Assembly (NCBI GenBank): GCA_017619295.1
Contig: JAFZSQ010000037.1
Coordinates: 1-33,017 of the forward strand
Direction: 5' to 3'
From: Lachnospiraceae bacterium
GTDB lineage: Bacteria > Bacillota > Clostridia > Lachnospirales > Lachnospiraceae
Length of the DNA: 33,017 bases
Part shown: positions 6,780-20,475 of the stretch, piece after piece
Layout of the letters: each line of letters starts with the position of its first letter
Numbering within the stretch: the stretch's first letter is position 1
Program-made: the position numbers and the translations under genes
Notes under the pieces: model-generated
The model's database searches: none
Told to the model about the DNA's origin: nothing
The model's input: the letters and a program-made list of their open reading frames with translations, nothing else

Positions 6780-7418
6780 CTATTTGACCGTACTAGAAGG
6801 ACAAATGTCGTTAAGAACACACTTATCGCAATAGGGATTGGTTCTTGCAGTGCAGACATCCCTTCCGTGAAGTACGAAACGATGACATAAGTCGTTACCC
6901 TCCGAAGGAGGAACGATTTTCCACAATTCCTTTTCAACCTTACCGGGTTCCTTGATATTTTTAACAAGCCCAAGACGGTTGGAAAGTCTGATGCAGTGAG
7001 TGTCGGTTACGATGGCAGGTTTCCCGTATACATCACCCAGGACCAGGTTGGCGCTTTTCCTTCCCACTCCGGGGAGTTTCAGAAGTTCCTCCATGGTATC
7101 GGGAACCACGCAGTTATACTCATCACGAAGCATCATCATGCAGGCCTTGATGTCTCTTGCCTTGGAGTTTCCCAGTCCACAGGGGCGGACAATCTCCTCG
7201 ATTTTATCCACAGGAGCATCAGCAAGAGCTTCAACAGTCGAGTACTTATCAAGAAGCCCCGGCATAATCTGGTTAACCCTGGCATCTGTGCATTGAGCCG
7301 CAAGCCTTACACTTACCAGCAAAACCCACGCATCTTCGTAATTAAGAGAGCACTCCGCAATGGGGTACTCTCTTTTTAATCTTTCAATAATGATTTGTAC
7401 TTTTTCTTTTTTTGTCAT
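6780..7418 (-). CDS. nth: Endonuclease III (DNA glycosylase/AP lyase)
   Basis: This 212-residue base-excision repair enzyme removes oxidised pyrimidines and cleaves the abasic site. The helix-hairpin-helix LPGVGRKSANLVLG (115-128) holds catalytic Lys121, and VTDTH holds catalytic Asp139. The C-terminal iron-sulfur ligands C189, C197, C200 and C206 are present with CX7CX2CX5C spacing, one residue longer in the first gap than the E. coli CX6 pattern. The length is normal for the family. It lies two bases downstream of the ABC permease gene on the same strand, so it is probably the last gene of that transcript. Confidence 0.95.
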   Translation of the reverse strand: MTKKEKVQIIIERLKREYPIAECSLNYEDAWVLLVSVRLAAQCTDARVNQIMPGLLDKYSTVEALADAPVDKIEEIVRPCGLGNSKARDIKACMMMLRDEYNCVVPDTMEELLKLPGVGRKSANLVLGDVYGKPAIVTDTHCIRLSNRLGLVKNIKEPGKVEKELWKIVPPSEGNDLCHRFVLHGRDVCTARTNPYCDKCVLNDICPSSTVK

Positions 7419-11540: not shown

Positions 11541-12461
11541 ATGATTACAAAAGAAAAATTTGGAAACTATGAGAAGTATGAAATCGCTAAGGGTGATTTG
11601 GCTGTAACTGTTACAACTCTTGGCGCAACTTGTATTTCAATCAAATTCAAGGGTAAAGAATTGGCTCTTACCCATAAGACAGCTGATGAGTATTTAAACG
11701 GAGACGGATTCATCGGAGCAATCGTCGGAAGATATGCCAACAGAATCAAGGATGCAAAGTTTACCTTAAACGGTAAGGAGTACATTCTTCCTGCAAACGA
11801 AGGAAAGAACCAGCTTCACGGTGGTCCCAATGCCTTCGACAAGAGAACATTTAAGGCAGAAGAGATTGGCGATAACGCAGTTAAGTTCACATATTTCTCT
11901 CCCGATGGTGAGAACGGATATCCCGGAAACTTAACCGCTGTTTTCACATATACAGTTGAGAATAACGCTTTCAAGATTGACTTCGAAGGCGATACAGATG
12001 CTGATACCGTTTATGCTCCCACAACCCACCTTTACTTTAACCTTGCAGGTGGCGGAAGTATCTTGGATCACGAAGCAAGAGTACTTGCTGACGAGTATGT
12101 GGCAGTTGACGATGAGAGCATTCCTACAGAGATTAAGCCTGTGGACGAGTACTTCGATTTCAGAAAGACCCGTAAGATCAAGAGCTTCATCGATCACTCT
12201 TACGTTCTTAACAAGAGCGAGGGCGATAAGGTTTGTGAAGTCAGCTACGATGGTGTGAAGATGACTCTCGAAGCTGATGCTCCCGGAGTTCAGTTCTACA
12301 CAGGTAAGTTCTTAAGCGGCGAGTACAAGGCCTTCGAAGGCTTCGCATTTGAGCCCGGCCTTTATCCCAACTCTCCCAACAGGGATGATTTCCCCAACGC
12401 TACACTTAAGGCAGGGGAGCATTATCACAAATATGCCAGATTTTCATTTGAGAGCATTTAA
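11541..12461 (+). CDS. galM: Aldose 1-epimerase (galactose mutarotase)
   Basis: The 306-residue cytoplasmic enzyme interconverts alpha and beta anomers of galactose or glucose before kinase action. Visible motifs are GRYANRI (63-69), NQLHGG with His93, THLYFNLAG with catalytic His163, and FAFEPGLYPNSPN with the catalytic Glu near 272. The length is normal. AAAGGGG (11528-11534) supports the start. It stands as a single-gene unit between its own promoter and a strong terminator, apart from the Leloir-pathway genes, which are not in this window. Confidence 0.93.
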   Translation: MITKEKFGNYEKYEIAKGDLAVTVTTLGATCISIKFKGKELALTHKTADEYLNGDGFIGAIVGRYANRIKDAKFTLNGKEYILPANEGKNQLHGGPNAFDKRTFKAEEIGDNAVKFTYFSPDGENGYPGNLTAVFTYTVENNAFKIDFEGDTDADTVYAPTTHLYFNLAGGGSILDHEARVLADEYVAVDDESIPTEIKPVDEYFDFRKTRKIKSFIDHSYVLNKSEGDKVCEVSYDGVKMTLEADAPGVQFYTGKFLSGEYKAFEGFAFEPGLYPNSPNRDDFPNATLKAGEHYHKYARFSFESI

Positions 12462-12476
12462 TTTCCATTAAATACC

Positions 12477-12513
12477 AAGACCTCCTCGGGCTTTCGCCCT
12501 TGGAGGTCTTTTT
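12477..12513 (+). terminator. Terminator of galM
   Basis: Outer 9-bp stem AAGACCTCC (12477-12485) with GGAGGTCTT (12502-12510), inner stem GGGC/GCCC with loop TTTC, followed by TTT. Confidence 0.88.
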
Positions 12514-12550
12514 GACATCGGGATTTGCTATTTCTCGATTTCCGTTGCTT

Positions 12551-12690
12551 TTATATCCAATTATATTGTTTTATATTGAATTATATTTTTCAGACCCCAA
12601 TTATATTGAATTATATTGTTTTATATTGGATTATATTGTTTTATATTCGATTATATTCAATTATATTGAATTATATTGTATTATATTCTG
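12551..12690. repeat. AT-rich tandem array with exact 10-bp period
   Basis: Fourteen consecutive decamers fit the consensus TTATATTGWW in unbroken 10-bp register. Thirteen begin with TTATAT; the fifth (CAGACCCCAA, 12591-12600) is the only unit that does not. The array fills most of the gap between the galM terminator and the PAP2 gene. Each unit contains -10-like TATATT. Ten base pairs is close to one helical turn, so all TATAT steps face the same side. A small GGGAT/ATCCC hairpin (12692-12705) follows. Function unknown: a bending or regulatory region, or a slippage-prone promoter spacer, are options. Confidence 0.9.
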
Positions 12691-12733
12691 TGGGATAAAA
12701 ATCCCGTAAAAACGATAAAAAGGCGGTTATTAT

Positions 12734-13402
12734 ATGAACAAAGAAACCAAAACAAATGCGATATATACATCACTTTTATTTGTTGTATTTATCGTCTTCA
12801 CAATCCTTGTAAAGACTGTGGACGTGGCAGCCATAGGACCTGAAGGAAGCAAGGTTGGCTTTGCTGCGGTTAATGGTGCGGTAAGAGATGCCATTGGAAT
12901 ACATGAATTCTGGTACAAATTAACGGAAGTTTTCGGAATCGTTGCAATCCTTGTGGCGGCATTCTTCGGTGTTATCGGACTGATGCAGCTTATCAAAGGA
13001 AAGAGCCTTAAAGCAGTCGAATCAGACATCTATGCTCTCGGTGCAACCTATGTGGCAACAATAGTGTTCTACGCTCTCTTTGAGAAACTTGTAATCAACT
13101 ATCGTCCCATTATCCAGGATGTGGAGGAAGGCCTTGAAGCATCATTCCCTTCATCCCACACAATGCTTATTATTGTGGTTCTTGGAACAGCCATTATTGA
13201 GGTAACAAACAGAATTAATGACGTCAAGACATCAATGATTATTAAGATTGTTCTTGGATTAATTATTGCCCTTACAGTTGTGGGACGACTTATCTGTGGC
13301 GTTCACTGGTTTACGGATATTGTGGCAGGAATGATTCTTGGTGCTGCACTTATCTCTCTGTACATGACCTTGAAGGGTTTCTTTGCTAAATCTTTTGACT
13401 GA
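12734..13402 (+). CDS. PAP2-superfamily membrane phosphatase
   Basis: The 222-residue protein has about five or six membrane segments. The three phosphatase motifs are visible: K118-x5-R124-P125 (one residue shorter than the usual K-x6-RP), PSSH (139-142, usual PSGH) and R185-x5-H191-x3-D195. Members of the family dephosphorylate undecaprenyl pyrophosphate, phosphatidylglycerol phosphate or phosphatidate on the outer membrane face; which applies here cannot be told. AGGCGG (12721-12726) lies seven bases before the ATG. It is preceded by the decamer array and followed after 35 bases by the J-like gene. Confidence 0.88.
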   Translation: MNKETKTNAIYTSLLFVVFIVFTILVKTVDVAAIGPEGSKVGFAAVNGAVRDAIGIHEFWYKLTEVFGIVAILVAAFFGVIGLMQLIKGKSLKAVESDIYALGATYVATIVFYALFEKLVINYRPIIQDVEEGLEASFPSSHTMLIIVVLGTAIIEVTNRINDVKTSMIIKIVLGLIIALTVVGRLICGVHWFTDIVAGMILGAALISLYMTLKGFFAKSFD

Positions 13403-13437: not shown

Positions 13438-15078
13438 ATGGCAAAATCAATCTGGCAGTGGCTTGAGATAGAGCCCACCACCGACAAAAACGCAATTAAG
13501 GCAGCATATGCAGAGGCTGCCAAGAAATATCACCCTTCGGAGCACCCTGAAGAATTTCAGGAGCTGAGAAGGTGTTACAAGGCAGCCATAAGTCAGGCTG
13601 ATCTGAAAACAGTAGCAGAAGAAAAAGAAATTCGGGAGTCATCGGAAGAAGAGACTGAAACCTATGAAGAGGAGAATCTTTTTCCTCCGTTCTCTGATGA
13701 GGCAAAAGAAAACAATCCCTTTACATCATTTTGGAGGGAATCTGAGAATGACAACCTGTCCGAAAGACAGCGAATCATGCTCACATTCTTTTCCCAAATG
13801 GGTGAACTTATGTCCCTTAAAACGGCTAAATACAAGACGGCAAGGGCTTTCGAATTAATCTTTGAAGGCTGGAATCACAGCTTTTATGCTGATGAGATTA
13901 CTCCAGAGTTTACTCATTTGCTTTTGGAAATAATTTCCAATATAGCGGGGCTTGAGTACAAGGCATATGATGTCTTTGAAAAAGCAATAATCTGCGGAAG
14001 AAAAACAGGAGAATGGACCGGAGTTTATTCCAGATTTCTTTCCATGAAGTCGGAAGCAGGCCGACTGATAGACAAAAGCAAAAAGGGTGATTGTTATGCC
14101 CTTTTCAGCGAGTGCTCCGGAAAGAAGGATTTGCGTCTCTCCATAGGATATATCACACCCTATGGGCTTGGGAAATTTTTGTGCAAGAAGGATTTCCTCT
14201 GCGATTCCCGGATTTTGATTGATTTGAAAAAGGGTTTTAAGAAGTATCTGTGGAAGGATCTTGGATGGACCTTGAACCCTAAGAATGATGAATTAAGGGT
14301 AATAGACTGCACAGGAAAAGAGATAATAGTTTTATCCCCTGATCATTACAGATATACAAGCCTTTTATGCATCCTAAAGGATTCAGAAGCTCATTATCTG
14401 GGGAAAGTTGAATTCGATAAGATTACCCTGATGACTAAGATGCTTCCGGATCCGGACGGTAGGGTGAGGGTTTGTTCCAATCCTCATTTTACAAATTCTC
14501 TAAAACGTAATTTCAAGGAACAGATTATCTATAGCATCATATGGATTGTTTGTTTTGTCATATTCACTAATCTGGCAATTTATGGGAGAGAATTTAAAGA
14601 TGCCGGGAAAATGATTCCATATTGTCTTTCGTTTGCGGGAGTAATCATCATAATAGCTCCTACATTTCTGTTTTTTATGGCTTCCTTTATCAAGGGCTTT
14701 TTGGTACTGCTGCATGTTTATGTGATTTACTTTAGAATGGCAAAACACAGGACATCATTTAAAAGGAATATACTGGAAGGCTACTGTTACAGAACCGTGG
14801 GCGGCAATGTATTTTTCATGAATGACTACCTGATTATGAAGAGTCCACTGGATATAGGTATGCTTAAATTCGAAAACATATCAAGGGCAACAATTATTCC
14901 GGGCCTTCCGGGCTCAAGGAAGAGAACATTGCAGATTGTTCAGAAGATAGGACGACCTTTTTCGCTTAAGATTTATGACAAAGGATGGCCGGATGCGTTG
15001 TGCGCGAGAATCAAAAATACGATACATAATGTATTTGGAACTAAGATTTTGGGGGAAGAGCATGCTAGTTGGTATTGA
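13438..15078 (+). CDS. Membrane J-domain-like protein, partner of adjacent Hsp70
   Basis: The N-terminus of this 546-residue protein looks like a J-domain (WQWLEIEPTTDKNAIKAAY, then KKYHPSEHPEEFQELRRCYK), but the HPD tripeptide that activates Hsp70 reads HPS (32-34). An acidic linker (about 60-90) and a long uncharacterised region follow; two or three membrane segments lie at about 360-430, before a C-terminal domain of about 100 residues. It overlaps the HscC-type Hsp70 gene by 17 bases. In E. coli HscC works with the membrane J-protein DjlC, so a dedicated pair is likely. RBS GGGGGAG lies just upstream. Whether HPS still works is an open question. Confidence 0.75.
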   Translation: MAKSIWQWLEIEPTTDKNAIKAAYAEAAKKYHPSEHPEEFQELRRCYKAAISQADLKTVAEEKEIRESSEEETETYEEENLFPPFSDEAKENNPFTSFWRESENDNLSERQRIMLTFFSQMGELMSLKTAKYKTARAFELIFEGWNHSFYADEITPEFTHLLLEIISNIAGLEYKAYDVFEKAIICGRKTGEWTGVYSRFLSMKSEAGRLIDKSKKGDCYALFSECSGKKDLRLSIGYITPYGLGKFLCKKDFLCDSRILIDLKKGFKKYLWKDLGWTLNPKNDELRVIDCTGKEIIVLSPDHYRYTSLLCILKDSEAHYLGKVEFDKITLMTKMLPDPDGRVRVCSNPHFTNSLKRNFKEQIIYSIIWIVCFVIFTNLAIYGREFKDAGKMIPYCLSFAGVIIIIAPTFLFFMASFIKGFLVLLHVYVIYFRMAKHRTSFKRNILEGYCYRTVGGNVFFMNDYLIMKSPLDIGMLKFENISRATIIPGLPGSRKRTLQIVQKIGRPFSLKIYDKGWPDALCARIKNTIHNVFGTKILGEEHASWY

Positions 15079-16768
15079 TTTGGGAACAACAAACAGCCTT
15101 GTAAGTGTTTGGACAGATGAGGGGGTTAAACTCATTCCGAATGAGTTTGGAGAGTATCTTACTCCTTCGGTAGTATCTTTCGGGAAAGAGACCTATGTTG
15201 GCAAAACAGCAAAGGAAATGCTGATAACCAAACCCGAGAACACTTTCAAAGAGTTTAAAAGACTCATGGGAAAAGATGTGAAGCTAAAACGTGAAGACGG
15301 CGGCAGCGTTTCTCCCATCGAGCTGTCGTCAATAATTATCAGGAAACTGGTGAACGATGCCGAGAAATATTTGAATGAAGAGGTGACGGAGGCTGTAATC
15401 AGTGTTCCAGCCTACTTTGATGACCATCAACGCGAAGCCACAAGACTGGCCGGGGTGAAAGCCGGCATAAAGGTAACGCAGCTGGTAAATGAACCCTCAG
15501 CAGCAGCCCTTGCATATCATATAAGAAATATGGATGAGGACGAAAGGTTCATAGTATTTGATTTTGGTGGCGGTACTCTTGACGTTACCCTTGTGGAAGC
15601 CTTTGACAATATGGTGGAGATATGCAATATCTCCGGCGATAACAGCCTTGGCGGCAAGGATTTTAACGAGGCTATTGCCATAGATATCTGTAATAAAACC
15701 GGCCATGACTGGAACGCGCTGAATCTTAAAGAGCAGGCTGTTTTCATTGCCTTTGCCGAGAATATTAAGATTGCTCTGTCCTCCTCGGATGAGGTGAGCG
15801 CTAAGGTTAATATTGAGGATAAGGAATATGAATATTCCCTGACACAGCAGGAACTGATTGACCTTTCTGAGCCGATTTTCAAAAGAATCACAGTTGTTCT
15901 TAAGAAGCTTATGAACGATTCCATGCTGAATATCGAAGATATATCAGGCGTGATTATGGTAGGTGGCTCCTCCAAGATGCCCTGCGTCAGAGCATATGTA
16001 AGCAGTCTTTTTGGAGGAAAAGTATATATGGATCCCGAAGGGGATGTATCCATATGTAAAGGTGCCGGAGTTGTTACGGGAATTAACCTGAGAAAAGAAG
16101 AGGTTAAAGATATAGTAATGACAGATATCTGTTCCTTCTCTTTGGGTATTGAAATACTTGGTGGCGTTATGTCTGTTATTATCCCGAAGAACCAGACGTT
16201 ACCTGTCAGCAGAATGCACAGATATTATACGGTCGGTGACAACCAACCCAAAATTGAGATTAACATATATCAGGGTGAGAACCATATTGCTTCCAGGAAT
16301 CTGCTGCTTGATAATTTTAGTATCAGAGTCCCCAGACTTCCCAAGGGTGAAGCCTTTGTGGACGTGCGATTCTCCTATGATTTGAACGGAATATTTGATA
16401 TAGATGTTCACTGTCCATTAAACGGGGCCAGCGTTCACAGAAGCCGTGGGGCAAATATGGGCGTGGACTCAGATTATATGGACAAGCTTAAACTGAACAT
16501 GGAAGAGCTTAAACAGGATCCCAGAGAGCTTCCTGAAGTTAAGTACGTTATCGAAAGAGCATTAAGGATATTCGAGGAAGGAAATGAATATCAGAAGAGA
16601 GCCATCGAGATAGAACTTATGCGTTTCGACAATGTCCTTGAGACCTGCAGAATACCCGAGTGCCAAAAAGCTGCTGCAGGCTTTGCATTAAGACTTAAGG
16701 AACTTGAGAAGACAATGTTCAGATTTGAAGGGGAAACAGATGATTTGTGGGATGACATCTTGAAATAA
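15062..16768 (+). CDS. hscC: HscC-type Hsp70 chaperone
   Basis: The 568-residue Hsp70 resembles E. coli HscC (556 residues) more than DnaK: short length, GIDLGTTNSLVSVW at the N-terminus, FGEYLTPSVVSF, NEPSAAALAY, FDFGGGTLDVTLVEA, VMVGGSSKMP, and the HscC-like TDICSFSLGIEI and VNIYQGENH. The nucleotide domain is complete; the substrate domain is short and lacks the DnaK-type C-terminal lid tail. An in-frame ATG upstream (14975) is rejected: homology starts at MLVGIDLG, and GGGGGAAG lies just before 15062. Overlap with the J-like gene indicates translational coupling. Clients are unknown. Confidence 0.9.
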   Translation: MLVGIDLGTTNSLVSVWTDEGVKLIPNEFGEYLTPSVVSFGKETYVGKTAKEMLITKPENTFKEFKRLMGKDVKLKREDGGSVSPIELSSIIIRKLVNDAEKYLNEEVTEAVISVPAYFDDHQREATRLAGVKAGIKVTQLVNEPSAAALAYHIRNMDEDERFIVFDFGGGTLDVTLVEAFDNMVEICNISGDNSLGGKDFNEAIAIDICNKTGHDWNALNLKEQAVFIAFAENIKIALSSSDEVSAKVNIEDKEYEYSLTQQELIDLSEPIFKRITVVLKKLMNDSMLNIEDISGVIMVGGSSKMPCVRAYVSSLFGGKVYMDPEGDVSICKGAGVVTGINLRKEEVKDIVMTDICSFSLGIEILGGVMSVIIPKNQTLPVSRMHRYYTVGDNQPKIEINIYQGENHIASRNLLLDNFSIRVPRLPKGEAFVDVRFSYDLNGIFDIDVHCPLNGASVHRSRGANMGVDSDYMDKLKLNMEELKQDPRELPEVKYVIERALRIFEEGNEYQKRAIEIELMRFDNVLETCRIPECQKAAAGFALRLKELEKTMFRFEGETDDLWDDILK

Positions 16769-16819: not shown

Positions 16820-18271
16820 ATGAAAATCGGGTTTGACAATGACAAATATGTGAAACTCCAATCTGAAAGGATTAGAGAAAGAATTGACGAGTTCGGCGGT
16901 AAGCTTTACCTGGAATTCGGCGGAAAGCTTTATGATGACTTGCATGCATCAAGAGTGCTTCCCGGATTTGAGCCGGACAGTAAGCTGAAGATGCTTATGA
17001 AGCTTCAGGATCAGGCGGAGATGATTCTTGTAATCGGAGCCGACGCCATTGAGGCCAACAAAGTAAGAGGTGATCTTGGAATCACATACGACGAGGATTT
17101 GCTTCGTCTGGTTGACATCTTCAAAAACATGGGCTTTTATGTAGGCGGTGTGGTAATCACCAAATATGCCGGCCAGCCCAGTGTCGACAAATATCGTCAG
17201 AGACTTAAGAACCTTGGAATTGAGTCTTATCTTCACTATCCTATACCCGGTTATCCCAATAATGTTCCCCTTATCGTTTCAGACGAAGGATACGGACGAA
17301 ACGAATACATTAAGACCACAAGACCTTTGGTTGTGGTTACAGCTCCCGGCCCCGGAAGCGGAAAGATGGCTACATGCCTTTCACAGCTCTACCATGAGCA
17401 CAAGAGAGGAATCAAGGCAGGTTACGCCAAGTTCGAGACCTTCCCTGTATGGAACCTTCCTTTGAAGCATGCAGTTAACCTTGCATATGAGGCGGCAACC
17501 ATTGACCTTAATGATGTTAACATGATTGACCCCTTCCACCTGGAAGCTTACGGCGAGACAACAGTTAACTACAACAGAGATATTGAGATTTTCCCTGTGC
17601 TTAACGCAATCCTTACAGAGATTATGGGTAAAAGCCCATACAAATCTCCAACCGACATGGGCGTTAACATGGTGGGAAAGTGCATAATAGATGATGATAT
17701 CTGCGTTGAGGCATCTCATCAGGAGATTATCAGAAGATATTTACAGGCCCTCATCGATAAGAAGAAAGGCCTTCTCACCAACGAGATGATTTACAAGGCT
17801 GAGTTCCTTATGAATCAGGCCGGGATTTCAGTAGATGACAGAAAGACCGTTGCAGCTGCAAGAAAGCGCGCTGAAGAGACAGGAAAGCCTGCGGTTGCCA
17901 TCGAGATGGAGGACGGCACAATTCTTACAGGAAAGACCACAGACCTTTTGGGACCTGCGGCAGCAGTGCTTCTTAAAGCTTTGAAAAAAGAAGCAGGGAT
18001 CTCCAAAGACCTCAAAGTCGTTACACCTACGGCCATTGAACCTATCCAGGAGCTTAAGACCAAATATATGGGCAGCAAGAACCCCAGACTTCATACAGAT
18101 GAGATTCTTATAGCCCTTTCAGTAAGCGCATCCATAAGCGATGTTGCAAAGATTGCTTCGGAGCAGCTTCCCAAACTTAAGGGATGTGAGGTTCACTCCA
18201 CATGCGTTCTTTCAAGCGTTGATATGAAGGTATTCAAGAAGCTTGGAATGCATTTGACCTGCGATGTTTAA
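16820..18271 (+). CDS. DUF1846 family protein
   Basis: The 483-residue protein matches DUF1846 over its full length by recognised features: N-terminal GFDNDKYVKLQSERIRERI, the P-loop-like APGPGSGKMATCLSQLYHE (about 175-193), a conserved NLPLKHAVNLAYEAAT, and the ending KLGMHLTCDV. The family is widespread in Firmicutes; its biochemical role is not established as far as I know, and no function is assigned here. No signal peptide or membrane segment is visible, so it should be cytoplasmic. GGAGGA (16811-16816) is close to the ATG (three to four bases). Confidence 0.88.
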   Translation: MKIGFDNDKYVKLQSERIRERIDEFGGKLYLEFGGKLYDDLHASRVLPGFEPDSKLKMLMKLQDQAEMILVIGADAIEANKVRGDLGITYDEDLLRLVDIFKNMGFYVGGVVITKYAGQPSVDKYRQRLKNLGIESYLHYPIPGYPNNVPLIVSDEGYGRNEYIKTTRPLVVVTAPGPGSGKMATCLSQLYHEHKRGIKAGYAKFETFPVWNLPLKHAVNLAYEAATIDLNDVNMIDPFHLEAYGETTVNYNRDIEIFPVLNAILTEIMGKSPYKSPTDMGVNMVGKCIIDDDICVEASHQEIIRRYLQALIDKKKGLLTNEMIYKAEFLMNQAGISVDDRKTVAAARKRAEETGKPAVAIEMEDGTILTGKTTDLLGPAAAVLLKALKKEAGISKDLKVVTPTAIEPIQELKTKYMGSKNPRLHTDEILIALSVSASISDVAKIASEQLPKLKGCEVHSTCVLSSVDMKVFKKLGMHLTCDV

Positions 18272-18372: not shown

Positions 18373-20475
18373 ATGGAAAACAACAACAACCAGGGGGGAA
18401 ACGGGAATCCTAACAATCAGAACAGGAAGCCGAGTCTTTCCTTTATAATGCTTGCCATATTATTTACCATCTTTTTGGTAAGCATAATAATGAGAGTGTT
18501 TAGCGGAGATTCATCTCAGGAGATTTCCTACACCGAGTTTTTGACAATGGTGGAGGAAGGCAAAGTTGAGAGCGTAGAAATCTCAGTGGATAAAAGTCGC
18601 CTGACTATTTACACCACCAACCAGGCCAAACAATCAAATCTTCCCGATTGGTATATCTACGGAAACATGGTAGGCAAATCGGGTGAGACCTACTATACAG
18701 GTTATGTGGATGACGATGAGAATCTGATTCCTTACCTGAAAGAGCATAACGTTGAGATTAATCGACAGATTTCCGATAATTCCGGCGTGCTTCTTTCGAT
18801 TTTGATAACATATGTATTACCTGTAATCATAATGCTTGTTGTATTAAGCTTCCTCTTCAAGAAGATTGGTGGAGCAGGCGGACCCATGGGAGTAGGTAAG
18901 AATACTGCCAAGGTTTATGTACAAAAAGAAACGGGTGTTACATTTAAGGATGTTGCCGGAGAAGACGAGGCGAAAGAATCACTTGTCGAGGTGGTGGATT
19001 TCCTTCATAATCCCGGAAGGTATGCAGGAATTGGTGCAAAAATACCTAAGGGTGCCCTTTTAGTCGGCCCTCCCGGAACAGGTAAGACACTTCTTGCCAA
19101 AGCCGTAGCCGGTGAGGCACATGTTCCCTTCTTCTCACTGACTGGTTCCGACTTCATTGAGATGTATGTCGGTGTCGGAGCATCCAGAGTAAGAGATTTG
19201 TTTAAGGAAGCAAGTAAAAATGCTCCCTGTATTGTATTCATAGATGAGATTGATGCCATCGGTAGAAGCCGTGATAACCGTTACGGCGGCGGAAACGAAG
19301 AAAGAGAGCAGACACTTAACCAGCTCCTTTCAGAGATGGATGGTTTCGATTCCACAAAGGGAGTATTGATCCTTGCGGCAACCAACAGACCTGAGATCCT
19401 TGATAAGGCTCTTCTTCGTCCCGGACGTTTCGACAGAAGAATTATTGTTGATAAGCCCGACCTTAAAGGACGTGTTGAGATTCTTAAGGTACATGCCAAG
19501 GACGTTAAGATGGATGAGACCGTTGACCTTGAGGCAATTGCTCTTGCCACAAGCGGCGCAGTTGGTTCCGATCTTGCAAATATGATCAACGAAGCTGCAA
19601 TCAATGCAGTTAAGAATAAACGTGAGTACGTTACCCAGAAAGACCTCTTCGAGGCAGTTGAGCAGGTTCTTGTGGGTAAGGAGAAGAAAGACCGCATCAT
19701 GAGTAAGGAAGAGAGAAAGATCGTTTCCTACCATGAAGTTGGACATGCCCTTCTCTCAGCACTTCAGAAGAATACCGAGCCCGTACAGAAGATTACAATC
19801 GTTCCCAGAACCATGGGAGCTCTCGGATATGTAATGCATGTTCCTGAGGAAGAGAAATATCTTAATTCCGAGAAGGAACTTCATGAGATGATAGTAGGAC
19901 TTCTCGGCGGACGTGCCGCAGAAGAGCTGGTATTTGATACAGTTACTTCCGGAGCATCAAACGATATCGAGAAGGCAACAGACATTGCCAAGTCCATGGT
20001 AACTCAGTATGGTATGAGCAAGAAGTTCGGCCTTATCGGACTTGCAACAGTTGAGAGCAAGTACCTTGACGGAAGAGCAGCACTTAACTGCTCAGATGTA
20101 ACAGCGGCTGAGGTGGACAAGGAAGTAATGCGAATCCTCAAAGAATGCTATGAGGAAGCCAAGAAGCTTCTTGCCGAGAATCGTGACGTAATGGATAAGA
20201 TTGCCGAATACCTTATTGAGAAAGAGACCATCACCGGTAAGGAATTCATGAAGATATTCCGTGAGGCAAAGGGACTTCCTGAGCCTGAGGAAAAGAAAGA
20301 AGACGAGGCTAAGACCGAGGAACCTAAACCCGAAGAGCCTAAAGACGAGGAACCCAAGGCAGAAGAAAAGCCGGAGGAGCCTAAGGAGGAGAAATGGGAG
20401 GCTCCCAAGTCCATGGAGGATTTGAAGGCTGAGAACGAAGCTCCCGTAGGAAGATTTTCAAATACAACATTATAA
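18373..20475 (+). CDS. ftsH: ATP-dependent zinc metalloprotease FtsH
   Basis: The 700-residue membrane-anchored AAA+ protease degrades misfolded and regulatory membrane proteins. Two N-terminal membrane segments (about 22-43 and 139-163) flank the extracytoplasmic domain. Walker A GPPGTGKT (232-239), Walker B CIVFIDEIDAIG, the pore motif MYVGVGASRVRD, HEVGH (454-458) and third zinc ligand D531 are intact. The tail (about 636-690) is a long Glu/Pro/Lys-rich, probably disordered extension with repeated EEPK units, making the protein longer than typical. RBS AGGAGAG (18359-18365). It is a single-gene unit with its own promoter and terminator. Confidence 0.97.
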   Translation: MENNNNQGGNGNPNNQNRKPSLSFIMLAILFTIFLVSIIMRVFSGDSSQEISYTEFLTMVEEGKVESVEISVDKSRLTIYTTNQAKQSNLPDWYIYGNMVGKSGETYYTGYVDDDENLIPYLKEHNVEINRQISDNSGVLLSILITYVLPVIIMLVVLSFLFKKIGGAGGPMGVGKNTAKVYVQKETGVTFKDVAGEDEAKESLVEVVDFLHNPGRYAGIGAKIPKGALLVGPPGTGKTLLAKAVAGEAHVPFFSLTGSDFIEMYVGVGASRVRDLFKEASKNAPCIVFIDEIDAIGRSRDNRYGGGNEEREQTLNQLLSEMDGFDSTKGVLILAATNRPEILDKALLRPGRFDRRIIVDKPDLKGRVEILKVHAKDVKMDETVDLEAIALATSGAVGSDLANMINEAAINAVKNKREYVTQKDLFEAVEQVLVGKEKKDRIMSKEERKIVSYHEVGHALLSALQKNTEPVQKITIVPRTMGALGYVMHVPEEEKYLNSEKELHEMIVGLLGGRAAEELVFDTVTSGASNDIEKATDIAKSMVTQYGMSKKFGLIGLATVESKYLDGRAALNCSDVTAAEVDKEVMRILKECYEEAKKLLAENRDVMDKIAEYLIEKETITGKEFMKIFREAKGLPEPEEKKEDEAKTEEPKPEEPKDEEPKAEEKPEEPKEEKWEAPKSMEDLKAENEAPVGRFSNTTL

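Follow-up and report, generated by a model that had tools for sequence, protein, structure and literature searches.

Operators located within the promoter of the gene that encodes their own binding protein are a known kind of regulatory element. The closest described counterparts of the locus reported here are autorepressors of the BlaI/ArsR/MarR class and the AbiEi antitoxins, the latter having operators in their own promoters according to two reports (PMC7319586, PMC3985639). The family described below resembles these proteins in its probable winged helix-turn-helix (wHTH) domain, as judged from weak sequence matches to BlaI, ArsR and MarR chains, and in putative binding sites that lie over the -35 and -10 elements of the protein's own gene. 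In the present family, in contrast, this domain is joined to a P-loop ATPase, the repeats are numerous, direct rather than inverted and 10 bp in period, with pairs recurring every 29 bp, and the repeat word differs between paralogs.

Iterons and parC-type centromeres also consist of short direct repeats in tandem, roughly one turn of the helix from each other and located ahead of the gene for the binding protein; unlike these, the arrays described here mostly accompany chromosomal-looking single genes, with no evident replication or partition partners at the 11 loci inspected. Repeats about one helical turn apart are likewise read by SARP-type regulators, which are winged-helix-type proteins, as we propose for the present family, although SARP repeats are few and their readers belong to a different protein family and activate other genes. 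One report describes the SARP sites as heptameric direct repeats within promoters (PMC5930380). The ATPase portion of the present family is most similar to the STAND/archaeal-type ATPases (ATPase_2, AAA_14, AAA_16, AAA_22, nSTAND), as reflected in its Pfam matches (ATPase_2, AAA_14, AAA_16 and AAA_22 are each matched, at E up to 1, by 36/36 members in the alignment) and in an invariant GKT and D145. Full-text searches of open-access literature listed no description of cognate upstream arrays for such ATPases, or of an ATPase family with its own co-varying arrays.

The window analysed here, a 33,017-nucleotide stretch of a Lachnospiraceae genome, contains 14 decamers in exact register (Table 1), 13 of which begin with TTATAT and 12 with TTATATT. 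In these 12, the first seven bases form a core (TTATATT) and the remaining three are free; differences between the regular units are limited to the final three positions, or the final four in the first unit. This recount bears out the preliminary description of a registered array, with one aberrant unit, ahead of a PAP2 gene. Tandem Repeats Finder delimits the array at 12551-12687 (period 10, 13.7 copies), its G+C content is 16%, and a 27-bp pattern of three successive cores occurs eight times in the window, compared with none in 100 dinucleotide shuffles. With as many as three mismatches allowed in this triple-core pattern, no second copy of the array was found in the 2.75-Mb assembly; presence at one locus only rules out a genome-wide repeat family. 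Nor was there a credible match to a known structured RNA element, the single Rfam match within 12300-13000 (E 0.85) falling far under the gathering score. A promoter scan of the array region returned six sites, compared with 5.8 expected; the possible promoter picked out by eye (Table 1), whose G11 counterpart is TTGAAT-N17-TATTAT, was not among them.

Table 1. Coordinates of features in the window, in the sister species G11 and at two loci in other genomes.
Feature	Position	Strand	Remark
Aldose 1-epimerase gene	11541..12461	+	Left neighbour common to window and G11
GC-rich terminator-like hairpin with T-run	12479..12513	+	3' of epimerase gene, left of array; by eye
Decamer array (TTATATNNNN in 13 units, one further unit aberrant)	12551..12690	+	Putative orphan operator-like array
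Aberrant unit CAGACCCCAA	12591..12600	+	
Nine consecutive cores, 12601 to 12681	12601..12687 (block)	+	
Possible promoter TTCAAT-N17-TATTAT	12656..12684	+	Inside array; by eye, weak
PAP2 superfamily phosphatase gene	12734..13402	+	Right of array
DnaJ-like/Hsp70 gene pair	13438-16768		Between PAP2 and DUF1846 genes
DUF1846 gene	16820-18271		
LemA-family gene, G11	L027:3090-3752		Between epimerase and array; Pfam E 9.5e-14
CAGTAAA array	L245 (G310:C34)		Before gene for TetR-family regulator; within 1.5 kb, no ATPase
CAGTAAA pair array	L249 (G003:C28)		Before ORF without Pfam match (127 aa scanned)

Comparison within the genus involves two genomes, that of the window and that of the sister species, Lachnospiraceae bacterium G11 (locus L027). 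The G11 array sits between the same outer genes as the window array, in the order epimerase, LemA-family gene, hairpin, array, 347-aa ATPase, PAP2, with only 4 nt between the ATPase stop codon and the PAP2 ATG. Both the LemA and the ATPase genes are missing from the window locus, where the array adjoins PAP2 (43 nt from the last unit to the PAP2 start) because the ATPase gene that follows the array in the sister species is absent. The association with PAP2 noted in the preliminary description is real in the window and yet indirect, as the ATPase gene intervenes in G11; assembly error, which it had also raised, is unlikely, since the sister species has this array too, between the same outer genes. 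The G11 array has a similar hairpin ahead of it; scanning the hairpin interval of the window gave just an overlapping minus-strand site. To the right, the DUF1846 gene of G11 comes directly after PAP2, without the intervening DnaJ-like/Hsp70 pair of the window (the DnaJ-like protein, 546 aa, has a Pfam score slightly below cut-off, and its ORF overlaps the 597-aa Hsp70 ORF). By profile search, the window's own genome contains one ATPase only (G000:C48), which is encoded at another locus, occupies a different part of the tree and is accompanied by a word of its own (TATAACAAGA); the assembly being 95.8% complete, an ATPase encoded elsewhere could be missing from it.

An alignment of the window and G11 arrays spans 102 columns and needs one 10-bp indel, whose position is the aligner's choice; unit number, suggested earlier to be possibly variable, thus differs by one 10-bp unit between the two species. 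The right-hand block comprises nine cores in the window and eight in G11, a clean 10-bp indel, and at the aberrant unit G11 has an identical 20-bp core-to-core step in which the 13-nt spacer has diverged. All nine aligned cores (eight of the block, plus the core at 12581) are identical and the spacers differ, with changes at 0/63 core positions versus 8/39 other columns (Fisher p 0.0003). Because fourfold sites differ at 24/108 positions in PAP2 and 49/121 in the epimerase gene (22-40%), the cores appear to have been held while the spacers drifted at about the silent rate. Against the DUF1846 gene, whose 483-aa product is 100% identical to that of G11 and in which 41/483 third positions have changed, the excess of core conservation is less extreme. 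Silent changes in DUF1846 are far fewer than in PAP2 or the epimerase gene, divergence being uneven along the region. Intact cores are surprising if the binding protein is gone, unless its loss was recent or the array is still used.

The G11 protein is an AAA-type ATPase with a probable C-terminal wHTH domain, judging from its sequence matches. It scores above the Pfam cut-offs for AAA_22 (29.8 bits, cut-off 27), AAA_14 (28.8, cut-off 27) and AAA (23.4, cut-off 21.2) and below that for ATPase_2 (22.1, cut-off 33.2). Across the 36 aligned members, the Walker A motif (GxxxxGK[ST]) is present, with R47, G48, G50, K51 and T52 invariant and G45 in at least 90%, as is the Walker B acidic pair (D145 invariant, E146 in at least 90%). 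C-terminal positions 255-344 give weak profile matches to BlaI, ArsR, MarR and Lrp-like chains (best E 0.023), and Pfam HTH_24 is matched in 9/36 members. Homologs occur in 74/397 genomes of the family (E <= 0.001), where at most five candidates per genome were scored, so that paralog numbers are lower bounds, and in 5/398 genomes of a phylum-wide sample (E <= 1e-10), four of these being the window's own genome or members of the same family. Distant homologs were found in 30 plasmid records; near some of them, at up to about 3 kb, lie ParA genes. A phage or viral origin was rejected, because searches of 50,697 phage records gave no homolog and those of viral contigs no confirmed one, and the one PHROG match was weak (clamp loader, E 0.0012); membership in a defence system was rejected on PADLOC matches that were only weak (PDC-S01, E 0.0005; mad8, E 0.04). 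At 11 loci, read by ORF starts alone, no fixed partner gene was apparent, and no NCBIfam model matched the G11 protein.

Most genes encoding these ATPases are preceded by short repeats at 10-bp spacing, the words of which differ, as seen in the first 30 upstream regions and then in the whole set; they include ATTATATA/T, AGTATATAA, GTTATATAA, GTTATAAC and CAGTAAA, as well as GTGATAAA, ATTATGAA, GTTGTGGAA and others. The set was drawn from loci L027 and L137-L226, rather than from all matches in the 74 genomes, with a near-complete N-terminus required and identical proteins collapsed; L168 and L169, which lack the NP motif and also have arrays, had been left out earlier, and removal of L173 (misplaced start) from 68 records left 67. 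Mean upstream autocorrelation peaks at lags of 10, 19 and 29, consistent with a 29-bp recurrence of paired units spaced by 10 bp. Periodicity at 10/29 bp exceeded z 3 against dinucleotide shuffles (200 per ATPase region, 60 per control) in 53/67 ATPase upstream regions, the remaining 14/67 not exceeding it, versus 8/295 control genes (taken from L167-L226, with ORFs of 150 aa or longer). Seven of these eight periodic controls read as ATPase arrays too, either seen from a gene divergent to the ATPase or belonging to ATPases outside the set.

A recognisable promoter, defined as TTGAC followed 16-19 nt on by a -10-like hexamer (at least 4/6 matches to TATAAT), is present in 29/67 regions, compared with a mean of 1.0 and a maximum of 3/67 in shuffles; 38/67 regions have none by this rule. 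In 24 of the 29 promoters a unit lies on the -10 element, usually with a second unit in the spacer, and additional units are found downstream of the -10, in the leader. This is the layout expected of an autorepression operator. The cooperative protein binding proposed in the preliminary description gains support from the placement of arrays in ATPase promoters and leaders and from the co-variation, described below, of units with the recognition helix. Its proposal of multiple -10-like elements holds for the one unit that overlaps a -10-like hexamer in many relatives, but not for the other units, which lie downstream, and the scan of the window resembles shuffles. Among the 10 distant plasmid loci fetched (of the 30 records), clear arrays were visible by eye in three (L227, L228, L231). 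Repeats of the GACTCACAAG type, about 10 bp apart, precede the distant homolog of L231 (Arthrobacter plasmid p232), suggesting that such arrays may extend to Actinomycetota.

The words are not distributed at random over the family. Similarity between words correlates with similarity between recognition-helix regions, given ATPase-domain identity (partial r 0.26, with 0/1000 permutations as high), and the reverse partial correlation, of word with ATPase domain, is 0.08 (rank correlations, 65/67 ATPases kept). Word similarity thus tracks the helix region more closely than it tracks the ATPase domain, with moderate strength. Among 1089 distant pairs the helix-word correlation is 0.165; the alignment column best associated with the motif is 253, in the ATPase part, and the second best is 311, in the helix. 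At least two AGTAAA units are found upstream of 10/11 ATPases with an NP[YV][RK] helix versus 0/56 others, an association for which the Fisher value is overstated because the sequences are related; even so, ATPases with AGTAAA units do not group as a single clade, and between L178 and L159, which are sister rows, helix and word are both different. When 11 unit classes are placed on the tree of the ATPase part, 22 changes are required, compared with 45.5 in shuffles (0/200 as low). All seven ATPases with ATTATAT[A/T] units, that of G11 included, form one clade (support 100/100), and it is the word of this clade that the window array carries. An enforced difference between paralogs within a genome was not supported, mean unit similarity being 0.526 within and 0.517 between genomes. 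At L209 (G346:C6), a distance of about 3 kb separates two ATPases from different clades, whose words are ATTATATA and CAGTAAA.

Arrays and ATPase genes do not always occur together. A strict CAGTAAA array pattern matched seven loci in 378 genomes (reversed control, none): four lie directly before an intact ATPase gene, one beside a decayed C-terminal ATPase fragment, and two have no ATPase within 1.5 kb (L245 and L249, Table 1), indicating that the linkage of array and ATPase is not absolute. The L249 genome has a CAGTAAA-type ATPase elsewhere (L185), for which this array is a possible target in trans. The TTATATT triple pattern, with one mismatch, has matches in 21/397 genomes; the 22 loci inspected, including that of the window, comprise three with an intact ATPase and one with a stub (G310:C18), in which a three-unit TTATATT-like array is followed by an ATPase gene of this kind reduced to its first ~18 codons. 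The remainder look mostly like isolated or simple-sequence matches, so TTATATT triples alone are not diagnostic and long arrays are better. We also surveyed PAP2 genes of other genomes (71 loci, G11 included, 70 with enough upstream sequence). None of 70 exceeded z 3 for 10/29-bp periodicity in the 150 nt upstream (window, z 7.1), so that PAP2 genes do not in general carry such an array, and none of 71 had more than one TTATATW in the preceding 400 nt (window, 12).

We consider it likely that the window array is the autoregulatory operator array of an ATPase, orphaned by loss of the gene and perhaps still serving PAP2. In this model, the ATPase would bind the array in its own promoter and leader, probably as an oligomer that places two wHTH domains on each pair of units 10 bp apart, and would thereby shut off its own transcription, each ATPase lineage reading its own repeat word through the recognition helix. 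In the window genome, the ATPase gene would have been lost from the locus, leaving the array before PAP2. As only two genomes of the genus are compared, the choice of loss here over gain in the sister species is made from the ATPase-clade word of the array and not from an outgroup. Because PAP2 lies so close behind the ATPase gene in G11, the two are probably co-transcribed there, and, PAP2 following directly, the array region may hold a promoter for both; such a promoter, now serving PAP2, would explain why the array is intact here.

A different account of the present-day array is that it controls PAP2 by way of some other cellular factor, or by serving as a UP-like promoter region, phased and rich in A and T; in either case its origin beside an ATPase would be incidental. 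The short distance to PAP2 and the unchanged cores, in a species with no ATPase left beside the array, agree with this, as do the two CAGTAAA arrays without a nearby ATPase, one of them before a TetR-type gene; yet the other PAP2 genes surveyed are without such arrays and the promoter scan stayed at expectation, and we regard this account as rather unlikely. Intrinsic curvature or a platform for nucleoid proteins, in which 10-bp phased TpA steps bend the DNA with no specific reader, would suit the exact period and AT-rich core, but is very improbable given that the words of relatives contain G and C (CAGTAAA, GTTGTGGAA) at similar 10/19 steps and that the word co-varies with the recognition helix. 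Least credible of all is a functionless microsatellite evolving by neutral slippage: a length difference of one unit between species is what slippage would produce, but the cores are unchanged where other columns and the fourfold sites of the two nearest genes have diverged (DUF1846 less so), and such arrays are linked to one gene family.

The array might instead be an iteron- or centromere-like site where the ATPase assembles to partition, replicate or mobilise a small element and not to control transcription. An AAA ATPase with a probable wHTH domain and tandem sites does resemble initiator and partition modules, and both the ParA genes near some plasmid homologs and the want of a common neighbour among the 11 loci are compatible with such a role. 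The coincidence of arrays with the ATPase gene's own promoter argues against it, as do the absence of homologs from the phage records and of confirmed ones from viral contigs, and the sole match to a DnaA box (TTATNCACA) on either strand of the window, at 7204, is no more than chance (1.24 expected); we judge this explanation unlikely. More tentative than the orphaned-operator model, and doubtful in our estimation, is a family-wide reading in which the units are self-addressing, each ATPase recognising mainly its own array while word and helix change together quickly. Units would then be gained, lost and orphaned singly, in the manner of a selfish element or of an arms race; each array would act as a loading strip for ATP-controlled assembly of the ATPase, which would sense invaders or DNA state, and autorepression would be the resting state.

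An orphaned operator would assign a testable activity, sequence-specific binding to its own 10-bp array, to an ATPase unmatched in NCBIfam, and suggests that arrays can outlive their gene. Across the family, dozens of naturally occurring helix-word pairs are available, and if the code holds, repressors for gut Clostridia that act independently of one another could be drawn from them.

Other periodic repeats were encountered in the course of the analysis. At L099:1470-1590 (G316:C20), a 10-bp array has about a dozen units (TTTGTATTGC/TTTATATTGC), and within 1.5 kb no member of the ATPase family was detected. L113:1500-1540 (G247:C1) has three copies of the decamer TTATATTCCC, plus a fourth core, upstream of a gene whose start resembles that of a response regulator. 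In the window itself, a repeat of 15-bp period lies within a 700-aa ORF (20315-20354), and the 15-bp array in the apparently corresponding ORF of G11 (L027:9269-9359) is longer.
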